DNA from: Calothrix sp. CSU_2_0
Lineage (GTDB): Bacteria; Cyanobacteriota; Cyanobacteriia; Cyanobacteriales; Nostocaceae
Assembly: GCA_012034595.1 (NCBI GenBank)
Contig: JAAUPE010000001.1
Span: 1 to 64,000 of the forward strand
Direction: 5' to 3'
DNA: 64,000 bases
Shown: positions 19,513-47,029 of the stretch, one piece after another
Layout of the letters: the number at the start of each line of letters is the position of its first letter
Numbering within the stretch: position 1 is the first letter of the stretch
Program-made: the position numbers and the translations under genes
The notes under the pieces: generated by a model
Told to the model about the DNA's origin: nothing
Database searches by the model: none
What the model saw: only the letters and a program-made list of their open reading frames with translations

Positions 19513-20087
19513 ATGGAAAAGAAAAATATTTCAAGTATTCCAAGTTTTATTTTTAGCCGAATCAATGAAACGAGATATTTAAGGCTCAAATCAACCCGCA
19601 GATTTTTTTACCTGGCACTATTAATCATAGTCATGACTGCCGTTTTTTTAGTGCTGAACCAAGTCATATTCATCCAACTTTAGGCTCAAGCTTGTTGGGA
19701 ACTCAGCCAGTTATGGCACAACAGCGAATTACTGTTGGTGATGCTTGGCGACAAGTTTATCAGCAATTACCCAATTTTCCCAAGGAAAATAATTACACAA
19801 GTAAGGAAGGTGGGAAAATTGCCGAAAATAACACTTTAGTCGGAAGAATTATTCAATATCATTTTTATGTTAAAGGACGTGCGCCAAATTATCGCTTCGA
19901 TTGGAAATTAACATTAGCTGATTATTTAGGTGCAAACGAAGTTATATATGATACGAGTTATCCAGGACATGAATTGTTGAAAAAAAATCCCTTGGATGGA
20001 GATAAAGCCGCGATCGCAAAACTTTCTCGCGGTCAACGTGATACATTAGTTCAAACTTTGGTTAATGTGTTTAGTCCCAAATCGTAA
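19513..20087 (+). CDS. Hypothetical exported protein, about 190 aa, one frameshift at 19643-19649
   Basis: I do not recognise the family. The N-terminal part (MEKKNISSIPSFIF) leads to a hydrophobic stretch RRFFYLALLIIVMTAVF that looks like a signal anchor. It then runs out of frame at a T7 run. Adding one T continues as FSAEPSHIHPTLGSSLLG and PVMAQQRITVGDAWRQVYQ. The rest (SKEGGKIAENNTLVGRIIQY, NYRFDWKLTLADYLGANE) looks like a compact periplasmic domain of about 120 aa. An alternative reading is a short membrane ORF (19465-19683) followed by a separate gene starting at 19692; the continuous homopolymer repair makes one gene more likely. It follows panB closely and may be cotranscribed. Confidence 0.6.
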
Positions 20088-20138
20088 ATTCCCCCAATTC
20101 CCAATCCCCAATGCCCAATCCCCAATGCCCAATACTAA
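20088..20138. repeat. Heptameric repeat before the DUF1818 gene
   Basis: CCCAATC/CCCAATG heptamers again lie immediately before a start codon. Confidence 0.65.
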
Positions 20139-20139
20139 A

Positions 20140-20505
20140 ATGAATCGTGTCGTTAAAACTGGAATTGGTTGGAGAATTGGTTGGAATCCTTCTGCACCTT
20201 TATTTAAAGGGTTGCTGGGGACTGAAAATTGGGCTGTGGAATTAACTGAAGCTGAATTGGATGATTTTTGTCGTTTATCCGCACAATTGGCAAATACGAT
20301 GCAGCAATTAGCATCTGAATTGATGGATGGGGAAAAAATTGCTTGTGAAGCTGAAAGTGATTTGGTTTGGATGGAGGTTGAAGGTTATCCCCATGATTAT
20401 GGTTTGCGGTTTATTCTCAATTCAGGACGCTCTGTAGAGGGTGAATTTGCGAGTGTTGCTGTGGGTGGTTTGCTGCAAGCTGCGAGTATGCTTAAGGTGT
20501 TTTAA
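20140..20505 (+). CDS. DUF1818 family protein
   Basis: A 121-aa cyanobacterial protein of unknown function. From the ATG at 20140 it begins MNRVVKTGIGWRIGWNP, the typical family N-terminus; WAVELTEAELDDFCRL, LVWMEVEGYPHDYGLRFIL and GLLQAASML complete the domain. Residues upstream of this start are repeat-encoded and rejected. No membrane segment. The same order panB-unknown-DUF1818-tRNA on one strand suggests a small cluster, but no functional link is known. Confidence 0.85.
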   Translation: MNRVVKTGIGWRIGWNPSAPLFKGLLGTENWAVELTEAELDDFCRLSAQLANTMQQLASELMDGEKIACEAESDLVWMEVEGYPHDYGLRFILNSGRSVEGEFASVAVGGLLQAASMLKVF

Positions 20506-38645: not shown

Positions 38646-39871
38646 CTATGAAGACATTAACTGAGCTTTAAGACCGTGTGCCCCACGGTTCTTTATGTTT
38701 ATAGCCGCGTTTAAATCCCTACACAAACTCGTATAACAAACAGGACAATTGTGCGTTCTTTTAGATAGCGGCTTTTTGACTTTATGACCACAGCTAGAAC
38801 ATTCTTGGCTAGTACCGTTTGGGTTTACAGCTATTAGTTTTAAACCAGCATTTTCGGCTTTGTTTGAAAGTATTGATATAAACTGCCCCCATCCAGCATC
38901 ATTTACACTTTTTGCCAATCTTGTTCTAGCAAGTCCTTTGATATTTAATTTTTCTACAGCCACTACATCGTATTTATCAAGTAGTAGTTTTGCTGTTTTG
39001 AAGTGAAAATCTTTTCTAGTGTTAGCAACCTTTTTGTGTTGCTTGCCTAGTTTTTTAATTGCTTTTTTATGTCGATTAGACCCTTTTTTGCGTCTTGATA
39101 CTTTTCTTTGCGCTGATTTTAATTTACATTCAGCTTTTCGTAAAAACTTTGGTGCTGAGATTCTTTCGCTATCAGAAGTAACAAAGAAATCAATCAATCC
39201 AACATCAATACCAACAATATTCTCAGCATCAAAATCAGGTTTAATCACTGGGACTGTTTTGTCATCAAGGCTTAAGGTGACATAATATCCATCTGCTTTT
39301 TTGGTTACAGATACAGTTTTAATATCAAACCCGTCAGGTATTTGACGATGGGCAATTACTTTTACATCACCAATTTTTGAAAGTGTGATTCTATCACCAG
39401 AGAAGTGATGACGTTTAAACTGAGGGAACGTAAATGTTTTATATTGACCAATTCCTTTAATTCTAGGTCTGCCTGATTTTTTGCCCTTCGGGTTCGCAGT
39501 CGCTCTACTTGGGGAGACCCCAAGACCGCGCTGCTCACCATTACTATCACCTTTTAACCATCTTTCAAAAGTTATTTCAACCTTTTTAGGGACTTCTTGC
39601 AAAACCTGAGAGTGAATATTCTTGTACCAAGGTCTGTCTAGTTTAAGTTGAGTTAAAGATGCTTTCTGACTGTAATAGTTAGGTTTATCTTTTAACTCTG
39701 GTAATGACAGATTAAAGGACATCTATCTATTGGGCATCGGTTTCTTTCATACCAATCAAATCTTTGACCAAGCAGATAATTATACTGATGTCTCAGCATG
39801 TCAAGCGTGTTATCAATTTTTTCAGCTTGTTCTCTATTTGGTTTAATTCGATACTGGTATGATATTCGCAT
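38646..39871 (-). CDS. tnpB: IS605 OrfB/TnpB RNA-guided nuclease, one frameshift near 39713
   Basis: TnpB is the RNA-guided nuclease of IS200/605 elements. Catalytic RuvC parts are present: [10 protein letters not shown] (Asp), [11 protein letters not shown] (Glu) and [10 protein letters not shown] (Asp), and the zinc ribbon CSSCGHKV ... CPVC. The N-terminus [20 protein letters not shown] is in another frame up to about 39713, where CPLICH should lead to [17 protein letters not shown]; adding a T (A on the plus strand at 39713-39714) repairs it. A 20-residue stretch ([19 protein letters not shown]) is encoded by an inserted interspersed repeat at 39480-39545. With the repair the length is about 408 aa. 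Possibly active. Confidence 0.85.
39480..39545. repeat. Interspersed repeat inserted in frame in tnpB
   Basis: A GC-richer unit (TTCGCAGTCGCTC ... GGGGAGACCCCAAGACCGCG) with the palindrome TTGGGGAGACCCCAA. It is in frame and adds about 20 residues to TnpB at a surface position. Confidence 0.65.
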
Positions 39872-39928
39872 TTGTTTTAACTCCTTACAAAACATGATAA
39901 CATAAATGTAACGCCAATGGGAGACGAA

Positions 39929-42205: not shown

Positions 42206-42787
42206 TTAATGATTTTCCTTCGTAACTCTAATGAGAAAACGTAGAGCTTCATTTACTGCTTGAGAATTGGGAAAAATTTCTGCAACATCGGCTTCTAAAT
42301 AAACCTTTAACTTTTGAATATTAGTGCGATATGCCCTTGGCATTAAGCTACGCTTATCGCATTGAATTTCTTTTCTATCATTACTTTCTAAAATCTGATT
42401 TGATAAAGGGTTATTATCAGGTATCAATTTTTGGGGAAATAAATTATTTAGTTTGTTTACAAGAGATTCCCAGCTAGTTGCTTTTAGTTGAAAATGTTCC
42501 TTGGCTTCACGTAATTTTTTAAATTTTTGCTTGAGAATTTCAACTGTATAAATATCTTGCTGATATGTCTGGTTTTGTTTCTCAAGGTCTTCCTCAACCA
42601 TCTCAACAACCTCATTAATTAGTTTGTCATGATTTTCGGAAATTTGAGCGGCAGCACCTAAAATACGAGAGGTTGCTTTTATCTGTACCTCAGTCTCTTG
42701 TTTTAAGCGATCGGCAATATTACGAATTTTATCTCCTAATTTTGTTTTACTTTTATTCTCCGCAGTTGATGCAGCTTTTTTTCTCAT
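42206..42787 (-). CDS. Hypothetical coiled-coil protein B (193 aa)
   Basis: A helical, charged protein. Residues 1-110 form a long amphipathic helix (KTKLGDKIRNIADRLKQETE, ENHDKLINEVVEMVEEDLEK); the C-terminal 40 residues (LKVYLEADVAEIFPNSQAVN, EALRFLI) end like small RHH-type regulators. Residues around 140-152 (CDKRSLMPRAYRTN) are an in-frame insertion of an interspersed repeat at 42330-42370. It starts 15 bases after the upstream 384-aa gene, so the two are one operon. I do not recognise either family. Confidence 0.6.
   Translation of the reverse strand: MRKKAASTAENKSKTKLGDKIRNIADRLKQETEVQIKATSRILGAAAQISENHDKLINEVVEMVEEDLEKQNQTYQQDIYTVEILKQKFKKLREAKEHFQLKATSWESLVNKLNNLFPQKLIPDNNPLSNQILESNDRKEIQCDKRSLMPRAYRTNIQKLKVYLEADVAEIFPNSQAVNEALRFLIRVTKENH
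42330..42370. repeat. Interspersed repeat (GCATTAAGC type) in coding sequence
   Basis: The unit GATATGCCCTTGGCATTAAGCTACGCTTATCGCA has a related copy at 44197-44277 and a degenerate one near 3400-3435. Here it is read in frame as part of the 193-aa protein. Confidence 0.6.
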
Positions 42788-42801
42788 AATAGTGCTTTTA
42801 T

Positions 42802-43956
42802 TTATTCTGAAAGTATCTCTTTAATTGCAAGCCAAATACGTTTAAATTTTTGTACCATACCCACAGGATTACTTGTTGTTTCCTCGTCTACCAAATCCAC
42901 CAAAGATTGAATTCGATCCATCCGCTCTGCAACAATGTAGAGATTATTTATCGCTTCATCTTTACTTGTTAGCGATTCTCGCAATAGCACAACCATATCG
43001 GAAATTTCTTTTTTTAACCTTTCATTTTCAGCCTTACGACGAGTTTCCCATCCTTTAATACTAGCTTTAGAACGTCGTTCAAATTTAAGTTCTGATTTTG
43101 CTTCGTTATATAGAATCACATAGTTGTCTCGTTCAGAACTGACTTCCTCATATTTCACAAGTAATTCTGTAGCTTTTGCTTTTTCTTCGTTGTAGAGAGA
43201 TAAAGTCTGTTGATAATTTTGTTGCTCATGGGCTACACTTTCTTTTAATTGATTAATCTCAATTTCATAAGTTTGAATATTTTGATGAGCTTTACTTAAT
43301 AGGTATGCAGCCTCTTCATTTTTCTTGGCATCTATTTCAGCTTTGGTTATTAATTCAGTTATTTTTGCTTTTTCTTGTAGATATAACTGATAATATTCAT
43401 TTGATTTTGTGAATGTATAGGTATTTCTTAAATAATGTAAATCATTTTCCCAATCTTTAATAGCTTGCTTGTAGTTTCCCCAATCTTTACGCCGTTGTGT
43501 ATTACGTATAAATGTAGCAATTGAATCAAGCATTTTTTTGAATCTTTTTTCCGTCTCTGGTTCACCCCAATCATTCATATATTCAGGACTATTTATAGAT
43601 GGCAAAGTCTCCATAAAAATTTGCTTGAGAATCTGCCGACGTTGATTTTCAGATACACCACTGAAACCAACTTTATAGCCAAAGTATCCTAAAATTCCTT
43701 CGGGATATTTGATAATATTAATTAATGAATTATCAGCAATATTTTTTACAGTATAATCTACCGATATCTCTTTTTGTTTTTCTAACTCTTTTAAGTGTAC
43801 AGATACCCTTGTAAATAATGCTTGAGCCTTTCGTCGAGAACGAAATTCCAACTCGAAGGAAATTACCTTTAGTATATTTAGATTATTCCAATTTGAATTA
43901 ATAATTATTTCGAGTTCGTCTGTAGACTTATCAATATATGGACGTTCCTGTGACAT
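42802..43956 (-). CDS. Hypothetical coiled-coil protein A (384 aa)
   Basis: The N-terminal part is folded: LEFRSRRKAQALFTRVSVHL and then a domain with GYFGYKVGFSGVSENQRRQI, LKQIFMETLPSIN, YMNDWGEPETEKRFKKMLDS and RRKDWGNYKQAIKDWENDLH. The WG.P.S..R pattern recurs in uncharacterised cyanobacterial proteins. Residues 200-350 form a long coiled coil (Gln/Glu/Lys-rich), followed by a helical end. It is the first gene of the two-gene unit and is not related to structural maintenance ATPases (no Walker motifs). Function unknown. Confidence 0.65.
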   Translation of the reverse strand: MSQERPYIDKSTDELEIIINSNWNNLNILKVISFELEFRSRRKAQALFTRVSVHLKELEKQKEISVDYTVKNIADNSLINIIKYPEGILGYFGYKVGFSGVSENQRRQILKQIFMETLPSINSPEYMNDWGEPETEKRFKKMLDSIATFIRNTQRRKDWGNYKQAIKDWENDLHYLRNTYTFTKSNEYYQLYLQEKAKITELITKAEIDAKKNEEAAYLLSKAHQNIQTYEIEINQLKESVAHEQQNYQQTLSLYNEEKAKATELLVKYEEVSSERDNYVILYNEAKSELKFERRSKASIKGWETRRKAENERLKKEISDMVVLLRESLTSKDEAINNLYIVAERMDRIQSLVDLVDEETTSNPVGMVQKFKRIWLAIKEILSE

Positions 43957-44273
43957 ACTTTTGACCTAATGTCTTTTTCAAAACATATCTGTATTTTATA
44001 CGTAAATATTTTCAGTATATCCGGAATAATCAAGAAACTATGCTTACTGCAACTTCTGAGACAAGTCACTCCGTGTCTACGCACTTCATCGTGTAGTTCT
44101 TCGCGAAATTCTAATGCGATGGTCAAAGACTACTCTTGCTGAGTATCGCACTAGCAAGAAGATGAATGTGATATTTCTGGAAGGATTTGTGAATGGGATA
44201 TGCCTTTGGCATTAAGCTCGCGAAACTTTGTTGGGGGATACATCTCCCAGCAAGATTTCGCCGCTTATCGCGT

Positions 44274-44481: not shown

Positions 44482-44516
44482 TGTAGCGACTGTCTTAGTT
44501 GTCAAGTGCGATCGCA
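44482..44516. repeat. 35-base direct repeat, copy 1
   Basis: TGTAGCGACTGTCTTAGTTG followed by TCAAGTGCGATCGCA is identical to 47047-47081. The two copies bracket the nuclease-like gene, two toxin-antitoxin modules and the 100-aa gene. Confidence 0.85.
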
Positions 44517-44584
44517 CATTCATTTAGTTGACCTATAATGGCGGAAGGGCACAAATAATGTCCTTCAGGACGATCGCTAAACCT

Positions 44585-45190
44585 ATGGCTTATAGTGATT
44601 TCAAAACTGTTGGCTCCGTAAAATCTGCCTTCGGACTGAGCATGGTTGAAGATGTGCAGTTTTTAACAAATGTGGTTCCGGTAAACCCAAGCGAAATCCT
44701 GACGGCGATTTTGGCGGAGAATCTGCCATTAGCGACGGCTAGTGGTAGTGAGAAAGCGCGATCAGAGTTAATAATTAGCCCGGTTTTGGTGGAAGTCAGA
44801 CGACAGCTCGATCGAAAAATTGGGCTGTTTTCCGGTGAAGATTTTACGGTAGATGTAGAAGCGAAACTCAGTGGACGCTGTGATTTTTTGATTAGCCGAT
44901 CGCCGGAACAACTCGAAATCGAAGCACCAGTTATCGTGTTGATTGAAGCAAAACAAGCAGATTTGAAGTTGGGATTGGGGCAGTGCATGGCTGAAATGGT
45001 TGCTGCTCAGAGGTTTAATCAATTGAAGGAAAAGCCGCTCCCCGTGATTTATGGCTGTGTTTCTAGTGGGATACTGTGGCGGTTTCTGAAGTTGGAAGGG
45101 GCGGTAGTGACGATCGATCTCACCGATTATGCGATTACCCCGGTCGATAGGATTTTGGGTTACTTGGTGTGGATGGCGGAAAAAGGTTGA
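44585..45190 (+). CDS. PD-(D/E)XK nuclease-like protein
   Basis: A protein of 201 aa from the ATG at 44585 (other starts at 44528 and 44558). The sequence GRCDFLISRSPEQ, then VIVLIEAKQADLKLGLGQCM gives the order Asp ... Glu-x-Lys plus a following Gln helix, the core of a restriction-endonuclease-like fold. AAQRFNQLKEKPLPVIYGCV closes the domain. Similar small proteins are frequent in cyanobacteria and are not tied to a defined restriction system. It lies within the direct-repeat-bracketed accessory block. Confidence 0.65.
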   Translation: MAYSDFKTVGSVKSAFGLSMVEDVQFLTNVVPVNPSEILTAILAENLPLATASGSEKARSELIISPVLVEVRRQLDRKIGLFSGEDFTVDVEAKLSGRCDFLISRSPEQLEIEAPVIVLIEAKQADLKLGLGQCMAEMVAAQRFNQLKEKPLPVIYGCVSSGILWRFLKLEGAVVTIDLTDYAITPVDRILGYLVWMAEKG

Positions 45191-45197
45191 TTTTGGG

Positions 45198-45545
45198 TTA
45201 AGCTCCGCTACTGACTACCGTAGCTTGCCCTTTAACCGCTTCGCCTAAAATCGCCAAAATCTTCGGTACCAAAGGTTTAAGATCGGCTAACCGATTAGAT
45301 GAAGCTTGTAGAACAATTACCGCAATATCAAACTGAAGTAGGTTTTGTTGAAACGACAAGTTACGATCGACAGTGATAAAAACATCAAAATCTGCTTCTG
45401 CGAGGACAAGAAGTTGACCATCTTTTATTCCTGCCCACCCCACTTGAGGCACTGTTTTTACTTCATGGGCAACAAATTCCCTTGCCAGTCTGCGATCGAT
45501 GCACTCATCCAACAAAATCTTCACGCTATGCCACCATGCTGACAA
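45198..45545 (-). CDS. DUF5615 PIN-like toxin
   Basis: A 115-aa (108 from the GTG at 45524) PIN-like protein. VKILLDECIDRRLAREFVA carries the first acidic Asp/Glu pair, and FDVFITVDRNLSFQQNL the second, as in DUF5615/Mut7-C-type PIN domains that serve as RNase toxins. The ATG at 45545 overlaps the antitoxin stop, whereas the GTG start lies just past it; coupling is expected either way. It is the downstream gene of a DUF433/DUF5615 pair. Confidence 0.85.
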   Translation of the reverse strand: MSAWWHSVKILLDECIDRRLAREFVAHEVKTVPQVGWAGIKDGQLLVLAEADFDVFITVDRNLSFQQNLLQFDIAVIVLQASSNRLADLKPLVPKILAILGEAVKGQATVVSSGA

Positions 45546-45744
45546 GCTGTTTTCCCGCTTCCTCTAGGAAAGCAACCACTTGCTCTCTATTCACAGTTGG
45601 GAATCCATCTAGGAAGTCGTCGATCGACTCGCCTGCCTTAAGGTAGTCTAAAAGTGTTTGAATGGGAACCCTAGTCCCAGCGAAAACTGGAGTACCACCC
45701 ATAACATCAGGAGACACGCTAATGATTGGAGTGTTATTAGGCAT
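45526..45744 (-). CDS. DUF433 antitoxin
   Basis: A 72-aa protein with the DUF433 winged-helix core: IISVSPDVMGGTPVFAGTRV, PIQTLLDYLKAGESIDDFLD and FPTVNREQVVAFLEEAG. This is the usual first gene of DUF433/DUF5615 (VapBC-like) modules, here 20 bases overlapping the toxin. It probably represses its own promoter. Confidence 0.9.
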   Translation of the reverse strand: MPNNTPIISVSPDVMGGTPVFAGTRVPIQTLLDYLKAGESIDDFLDGFPTVNREQVVAFLEEAGKQLVSMVA

Positions 45745-46293: not shown

Positions 46294-46340
46294 CTTCGTT
46301 AGTTATAATTATTTTGAACTGGATCAAGGAAAATTACTCT

Positions 46341-46670
46341 ATGAGCCTCGTTTTGGAACGTGAGACACCACCTCTGCGAAAAGATGAAACCGGAGCAATT
46401 CGAGTTGGAAATTCAAGGGTTTTGCTGGAGACTGTGATTCGAGCATTTCAAGATGGAGCATCTCCTGAGTCTATTGTTCATAGGTACTCCACACTATCTT
46501 TGTCCGATGTCTACAACACAATTGGTTATTATCTTCGACATCAAGATGCTGTAGAAGGATACTTGAATCAGAGAGAGCAGTTAGTTGAATCAGTACAGCA
46601 ACGTTTGTCTAGTATTCAACCTGATCTCAGCTTAATTCGTACTCGTTTACTCTCTCAGCGAAATCGTTAG
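46341..46670 (+). CDS. DUF433 antitoxin-like protein
   Basis: A 109-aa protein from the ATG at 46341 (MSLVLERETPPLRKDETGAI). VGNSRVLLETVIRAFQDGAS and PESIVHRYSTLSLSDVYNTI form the DUF433 winged-helix fold; a helical C-terminal extension follows (LNQREQLVESVQQRLSS). Ends 8 bases before the toxin gene. It is longer than the other DUF433 copy and clearly a separate lineage, so the two modules did not arise by local duplication. Confidence 0.88.
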   Translation: MSLVLERETPPLRKDETGAIRVGNSRVLLETVIRAFQDGASPESIVHRYSTLSLSDVYNTIGYYLRHQDAVEGYLNQREQLVESVQQRLSSIQPDLSLIRTRLLSQRNR

Positions 46671-46678
46671 CAACGGTT

Positions 46679-47029
46679 ATGTTGAATTTGTTAAGCGATG
46701 AGAATTTTAATGGTGATATTGTTCGAGGGCTGTTTTTGCATCAGCCTAATCTTGATCTAATTCGGGTTCAAGATGTTGGCTTACAAGAAGTAGATGATCC
46801 AGCGATTTTAGCTTGGGCAGCAATTAACGATCGTATCCTCCTCACTCACGATCGTGCAACAATGCCAGATTTTGCTTACAACCGCTTGGTCGCAGGGGAA
46901 CCGATGGTAGGGATATTTGTGGTTAATGATCGAATGCCAATTCGACAGGCAATTGATGAGCTGTTGTTACTGATTGATTGTAGTAAACAAGTGGAATGGA
47001 AAGGAGTCGTGCTGTATTTGCCTTTGTAA
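46679..47029 (+). CDS. DUF5615 PIN-like toxin
   Basis: A 116-aa PIN-like protein: LNLLSDENFNGDIVRGLFLH (acidic pair), DDPAILAWAAINDRILLTHD (acidic pair followed by Arg) and AGEPMVGIFVVNDRMPIRQA. Partner of the preceding DUF433 gene, on the plus strand, opposite to the first module. Expected to be an RNase toxin. Confidence 0.88.
   Translation: MLNLLSDENFNGDIVRGLFLHQPNLDLIRVQDVGLQEVDDPAILAWAAINDRILLTHDRATMPDFAYNRLVAGEPMVGIFVVNDRMPIRQAIDELLLLIDCSKQVEWKGVVLYLPL

Follow-up and report, generated by a model that had tools for sequence, protein, structure and literature searches.

The P1-P2 locus and its parts

The window, a stretch of 64,000 nucleotides from Calothrix sp. CSU_2_0, carries two co-directional genes, here termed P1 and P2, separated by an intergenic gap of 14 nt. 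Both open reading frames exist, on the minus strand, with the coordinates and spacing given by the first-pass annotation. They and their parts are delineated as follows:

42802..43956, minus strand: P1, 384 aa, made up of an exchanged head, a coiled-coil rod and a conserved C-terminal core
42206..42787, minus strand: P2, 193 aa, made up of a helical core, a variable linker and a tail
43762..43956, minus strand: P1 residues 1-65, N-terminal part of the head, in which AlphaFold2 predicts three helices
43414..43752, minus strand: P1 residues 69-181, the "WGEP" domain, second part of the head (tblastn and alignment)
43087..43404, minus strand: P1 residues 185-290, coiled-coil rod (hydrophobic periodicity)
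42805..43143, minus strand: P1 residues 272-384, conserved core, ERRSKASIKGWETRRK ... KEILSE (family alignment)
42437..42787, minus strand: P2 residues 1-117, conserved helical core (alignment, model and dN/dS)
42212..42316, minus strand: P2 residues 158-192, tail, with homology to short proteins that in some cases adjoin BrnT genes; putatively of the ribbon-helix-helix (RHH) type
43957..44061, minus strand: region upstream of P1, of which 43994-44061 is also present in the sister genome G001

The adjoining DNA had been described as decayed and of the toxin-antitoxin type. Two DUF433/DUF5615 gene pairs lie there in opposite orientation at 45198-45744 and 46314-47029, presumably of the kind seen in toxin-antitoxin loci. 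Nearby there is also a TnpB-type gene of the OrfB_IS605/Cas12f1-like kind (38646-39722) with an upstream fragment (39692-39895).

The coiled coil originally proposed for P1 is borne out by a hydrophobic period of 3.50 over residues 185-354, a signal as high as which arose in none of 1000 shuffles. It is carried by residues 185-290, which are likewise significant when taken alone; residues 291-354, which lie in the core, show no significant heptad signal by themselves (88 of 1000 shuffles as high), and the periodicity of head residues 1-63 is not significant (302 of 1000). For P2 the same proposal requires revision. Its residues 16-75 and 82-116 are periodic at 3.60 (0 of 1000 shuffles as high) and 3.50 (2 of 1000), respectively, and because it has no 28-residue window with hydrophobic residues at seven of the eight a/d positions, we consider it helical rather than a classical coiled coil.

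Both proteins were modelled with AlphaFold2 as single chains. P1 (mean pLDDT 69.5, pTM 0.30) is predicted to have a small helical head, with pLDDT of 83-93 in the blocks spanning residues 11-60, a low-confidence region that includes the WGEP domain, a single helix over residues 185-354 and a last helix over 364-383. P2 (mean pLDDT 71.9, pTM 0.31) is predicted to have a long helix (residues 16-75), a helical hairpin, a disordered stretch (120-155) and tail helices at 166-171 and 175-192. Foldseek comparisons of both models against the PDB gave no match at an E-value of 0.001 or below, and VIA-align returned mainly long helices and bundles with Z under 8 for P1 and no rows for P2.

A conserved cyanobacterial two-gene family

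P1 and P2 constitute a conserved cyanobacterial two-gene family, which is nameless in the libraries we searched. Scans of the window proteins against Pfam, PHROGs, PADLOC and NCBIfam yielded scattered weak matches, none of them convincing: the lowest E-value for P1, 0.0044, is to a peptidase model (15.9 bits, where the cut-off is 354), and that for P2 is 0.057. When family members were compared with Pfam one by one, the best match of P2 was ORC1_wHTH (E = 0.00067; among the hits at E up to 1 for 7 of 36 members), and that of P1 was INO80F (E = 0.00039; 1 of 24 members). As the families matched vary from member to member, we read these as chance matches of helical proteins. Scans of the relatives and of the WGEP proteins likewise gave nothing useful. 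The scans thus agree with the first-pass annotation in finding no nuclease or ATPase family in either protein. Sequence searches of the PDB returned nothing with the P1 and P2 profiles, three chance-level rows with P2 alone and two with the WGEP domain. In the openly licensed literature we found no mention of the pair, and no paper under the names LfiA/LfiB; as the pair lacks a name by which to look for it, this does not prove it unpublished.

We scanned one genome from each of 84,980 species with the P1 profile after prefiltering with two short peptide patterns. Of 134 pattern matches, 37 proved to be relatives. Every one of these is in a record with a cyanobacterial name; most are from Nostocales, with the addition of Hydrococcus rivularis, an Oscillatoriales MAG and the MAG UBA8156. 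Because the scan relied on those patterns, it missed relatives whose letters differ at those peptides; G370, G507 and G519 were found only by profile searches of phylum genomes. In 36 of the 37 loci P2 lies directly behind P1, and the remaining locus (L093) retains just a remnant of the P2 tail. In a sample of 386 phylum genomes, from which any picocyanobacteria had not been removed, the P1 profile (E up to 1e-8) and the P2 profile (E up to 1e-18) match the same 10 genomes. Thus, the pair is accessory in its distribution. Within the family to which the window belongs, P2 (E up to 1e-15) is found in 53 of 217 genomes; two of these matches (G001 and G474) are to the tail only, and the other 51 include the P2 core.

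The spacing of the genes is also conserved. Among 31 pairs measured the gap is 5-31 nt in 29 and exactly 12 nt in 21, and the two apparent overlaps stem from open reading frames called at upstream start codons. In G519 the gap is 447 nt. In genome G031 a P2 gene without P1 (L042, 6465-7339) has, at the place expected for P1, what we take to be a RelE/ParE-like gene. In Calothrix sp. PCC 7103 (L075) a second P2-like gene of 158 aa (19753-20229) lies about 9 kb from the pair.

Conservation is concentrated where the two proteins are encoded next to each other: near-invariance is seen over the ~113 C-terminal residues of P1 and the ~117 N-terminal residues of P2. Compared with the nearest relative, L062, the P1 core has dN 0.050 and dS 0.491 (dN/dS ~0.10) and the P2 core dN 0.081 and dS 0.534 (dN/dS ~0.15); against four other relatives dN/dS is 0.09-0.13 and 0.16-0.22, respectively. 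Both genes, therefore, evolve as proteins under purifying selection. Identities of the two cores are correlated (r = 0.66 over 378 comparisons of 28 pairs), a value that common descent might produce by itself. The length of the P1 rod differs among relatives, many of which have repeats of 73 or 53 aa in it, with P1 as a whole ranging from 203 to 588 aa, some starts being uncertain; the rod of the window's own P1 has no clear repeat.

Genomic position and decay

We compared 40 neighbourhoods (the 37 loci, L042, L054 and the window), with family names taken from one or two members per group and extended to the rest by clustering. An ileS gene lies near the pair in six of them (the window, L042, L073, L074, L075 and, on the other side, L071), and in the window and L073 a DUF4926-type gene also stands between ileS and the pair. 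In L063, L065, L069 and L092 an ndh gene, P1, P2, a GHMP kinase gene, another gene and a further ndh gene follow one another on one strand. A third group (L079, L085, L087, L089, L093 and L094) is flanked by a cytochrome-c gene on the upstream side and a TonB-receptor gene on the downstream side. G519 belongs to another family; there, 72 nt separate the end of P2 from an ndh gene. One common-head pair is situated ~1.5 kb from a cas operon on the Nostoc plasmid pNSMS101. By the first-pass annotation, core, syntenic positions of the pair would count against its reading. The result is divided: groups of relatives do share chromosomal places, and yet the pair occurs in only 10 of the 386 genomes.

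Several loci are decayed. P1 is absent from L042, interrupted in L064 and truncated in L090 and L095, and in L093 P2 is reduced to its tail remnant with P1 still open. The presence of P2 without P1, together with the interrupted and truncated copies of P1, indicates that the pair is dispensable. The corresponding locus of the sister genome (L051; G001 contig 518, 2367-3014) is decayed by an insert, which by eye has short inverted ends, and by an internal deletion; what remains is the start of P1 and the tail of P2, both genes being broken in G001.

The shared positions, the long rods and the tandem repeats of many relatives would fit a cytoskeletal or cell-organising role, in which P1 polymerises into filaments, P2 caps or anchors them and the head sets their localisation. 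PMC7002697 describes several filament-forming, coiled-coil-rich cyanobacterial proteins and places one of them, HmpF, in all cyanobacterial groups except picocyanobacteria. HmpF, Slr7083, All4981 and others have coiled-coil rods as P1 does; P1 differs in being rare and almost always paired, whereas HmpF is described as widespread. We considered whether P1 could be HmpF, as a fellow cyanobacterial coiled-coil protein, and set this identity aside on distribution only. P1, at 10 of 386 phylum genomes, and P2, at no more than 53 of 217 family genomes, do not attain the breadth of HmpF. Moreover, a filament role leaves the antitoxin-like tail of P2 (see below) unexplained, and in the genome from which the window comes the P1 profile, at E up to 10, matches P1 and no second P1-like gene. 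We regard this role as the main rival to the interpretation proposed below, albeit an unlikely one.

The P2 tail

The last 35-60 residues of P2 align with short open reading frames found across cyanobacteria, many of which encode about 90-110 aa. At one such locus (L026) the gene preceding the short protein is BrnT (Pfam E = 9e-31), and a pattern of our own choosing picks out a BrnT-like motif at 11 of 23 short-protein loci, among which L022 is in fact the decayed G001 copy of P2. From background knowledge and gene position, we take these short proteins to be BrnA antitoxins with an RHH fold; Pfam itself called BrnT only. No RHH or BrnA model in Pfam matched P2 or the two short proteins scanned, and a PDB sequence search with one BrnT-linked short protein returned designed helical proteins only. 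The "RHH-like" tail of the first-pass annotation is homologous to short proteins, some of them next to BrnT genes, but neither libraries nor PDB sequence searches called it RHH, and in the structure model it consists of two helices with no strand. We consider the tail a putative RHH element. As a separate observation, a single open reading frame in L114 (5469-5894) has the same antitoxin-like tail behind another small domain, which appears HicB-like by eye; this is a second protein of a different kind to bear the tail.

Six relatives (L091, L096, L097, L110, L111 and L112) have instead a tail that we judged by eye to be coiled-coil-like; L070, L082 and L089 have, by their letters, the antitoxin-like tail. 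In the core tree described below, L110, L111, L112 and L091 lie outside the remaining pairs and L096 lies inside. On the simplest reading, the Nostocaceae line would have captured its antitoxin-like tail once. Since six pairs are without this tail, DNA binding cannot be the core function of the family.

These relationships raise the question of whether the pair is itself a toxin-antitoxin-like system, with P1 as the toxic partner and P2 as antitoxin and autorepressor. The tail homology, a gene order like that of L026, where BrnT comes first, and the two toxin-antitoxin-like pairs nearby would all be in line with this. However, P1 matches no toxin family, BrnT included, so that P2 has no BrnT beside it. 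In addition to the tail it has in common with the short proteins of BrnT loci, P2 possesses a 117-aa helical core of its own. The six pairs without the antitoxin-like tail also speak against such a system, and the open P1 of L093, which is accompanied only by a P2 tail remnant, would not be expected of a toxin, save where P1 has itself become inactive. We rank this explanation last and think it quite improbable.

Different heads on P1

The WGEP head and the stretch preceding it are present only in the window and in the P1 proteins of Calothrix sp. NIES-3974 (L061) and Calothrix sp. NIES-4105 (L073). Most other readable P1 proteins begin with a short basic segment resembling MRDADKDRRK or MRRADRR (the common head), and L086 and L096 have other starts. 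The comparison covers readable starts and so sets aside copies left incomplete by truncation or by a contig end, among them L076, L084, L090 and L095. A WGEP profile matched in 2 of 292 phylum genomes, both times within the P1 family.

At the same locus G001, a sister genome of the same genus, has a P1 with the common-head start that is decayed inside. Its contig is 93% identical to the window over 44499-45200, 81% over 43994-44061, just upstream of P1, and 88% over the P2 tail (42206-42331). Comparison of the window with L061 and L062 in blocks of 60 bases reveals a switch along the gene. Upstream, at 44060-44001, the window is somewhat nearer to L062 (39/60 against 31/59 for L061); from 44000 to 43521, through the head, it is nearer to L061; and from 43280 to 42441 it is again nearer to L062 in 12 of the 14 blocks, one of the other two being tied and one reversed.

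We built a core tree from 35 pairs and 224 columns, rooted on L096, L110 and L111 and leaving out L097. It unites the window with L061 and L062 (99/95) and L073 with L074 and L075 (96/91), and the AU test rejects a tree that groups the three WGEP heads as one clade (p = 0.003). At least three head changes are needed on this tree across all 35 rows. The tree has its limits: 16 of 32 inner branches are open, L096 has a very long branch and the joining of L110 with L111 is possibly a long-branch effect. In 20% of 200 bootstrap trees the WGEP rows lie on one side of a branch, as judged against the rows labelled coiled-coil tail only, a label set by a pattern that also wrongly took L070, L082 and L089. 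The two tree positions of the WGEP heads, the block switch and the common head of G001 together indicate that the head either moved between cores or was lost more than once. The head also evolves faster than the cores, with dN 0.305 and dS 0.931 against L061, and dN 0.373 and dS 1.007 against L073.

The WGEP domain outside cyanobacteria

The first-pass annotation had singled out the WGEP region as a domain, and rightly so, as it is common to other proteins and has invariant columns. Searches with tblastn matched eight proteobacterial records of a plasmid collection (three from Proteus, two from Rhizobium and one each from Aeromonas, Pseudomonas and Salinivibrio). The window's domain is 35-45% identical to the proteobacterial versions over ~95 aa, and an alignment of eight sequences has 11 invariant columns. 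In five of the six proteobacterial proteins read the domain is C-terminal, the Proteus protein having it internally, whereas in P1 it lies at the N-terminal end of the rod. These proteins have no convincing Pfam match.

Annotation was present for four neighbourhoods, which we read; it was missing from the Aeromonas stretch and from the Rhizobium leguminosarum record. PADLOC models run on hand-picked neighbours detected a CBASS cyclase and a 2TM effector in Rhizobium johnstonii, Hhe/PDC-S37 in Salinivibrio and PDC-S02 in Proteus. Defence matches thus occur in three of the four, these three being the regions covered by the PADLOC scan and the fourth that of Pseudomonas. As the sample is small and lacks a background rate for defence genes near any plasmid gene, we treat this association as a lead only.

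This lead bears upon anti-phage defence, in which the head would sense a phage product and the rod would relay the signal to P2. The exchange and faster evolution of the head, and the one pair near cas genes on pNSMS101, would point the same way. Against this, no effector family was found in the pair, and PADLOC-DB 2.0.0 gave no defence model for P1 (best DruC, E = 1.7) or P2 (none). No relative was found in viral contigs with the P1 profiles or the Proteus WGEP domain, or in phage records for P1 or that domain, and the positions shared by relatives adjoin housekeeping genes. In E. coli genomes a DNA-level search for the Proteus WGEP domain found none. Defence, which we rank next after a filament role, accordingly appears improbable to us.

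A possible two-protein adaptor

Alongside the observed anatomy and co-occurrence of the two genes, the different heads at one locus, the different tails and the purifying selection, there is a general pattern in which the outer ends vary and the middle is nearly fixed; this suggests an adaptor fitted with different recognition parts. Our preferred reading, to which we assign a probability of about 0.4, is that the pair works as a two-protein coiled-coil adaptor with an exchangeable recognition head and a dimerising P2 tail. The P1 rod would dimerise, and the fixed C-terminal core of P1 would dock on the N-terminal helical core of P2, the two cores being adjacent in the operon. The head would serve for recognition and be open to exchange, with rod length fixing the distance at which it is held. 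The P2 tail, antitoxin-like and probably RHH in most Nostocaceae, would dimerise and may also contact DNA, the promoter of the pair being the likeliest target. The binding of P1 to P2, the RHH fold, DNA binding, recognition of a ligand, the direction of head exchange and the biological role are all points that we infer. The "sensor-scaffold pair" of the first-pass annotation fits this anatomy well, with its exchangeable head, variable rod and fixed partner; the defence part of that proposal is weakly supported.

A bolder and rather doubtful extension is that the pair belongs to a new modular sensing class of cyanobacteria. Its fixed two-protein signalling core would take up different heads by recombination, one of them common to proteins of proteobacterial defence neighbourhoods, and would report through a latch captured from a toxin-antitoxin system. 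The combination of a fixed core with differing ends allows direct testing by head swaps. Through the WGEP domain, the cyanobacterial rods are connected with uncharacterised proteins encoded in defence neighbourhoods of proteobacteria, and knowledge of what the domain recognises would inform both.
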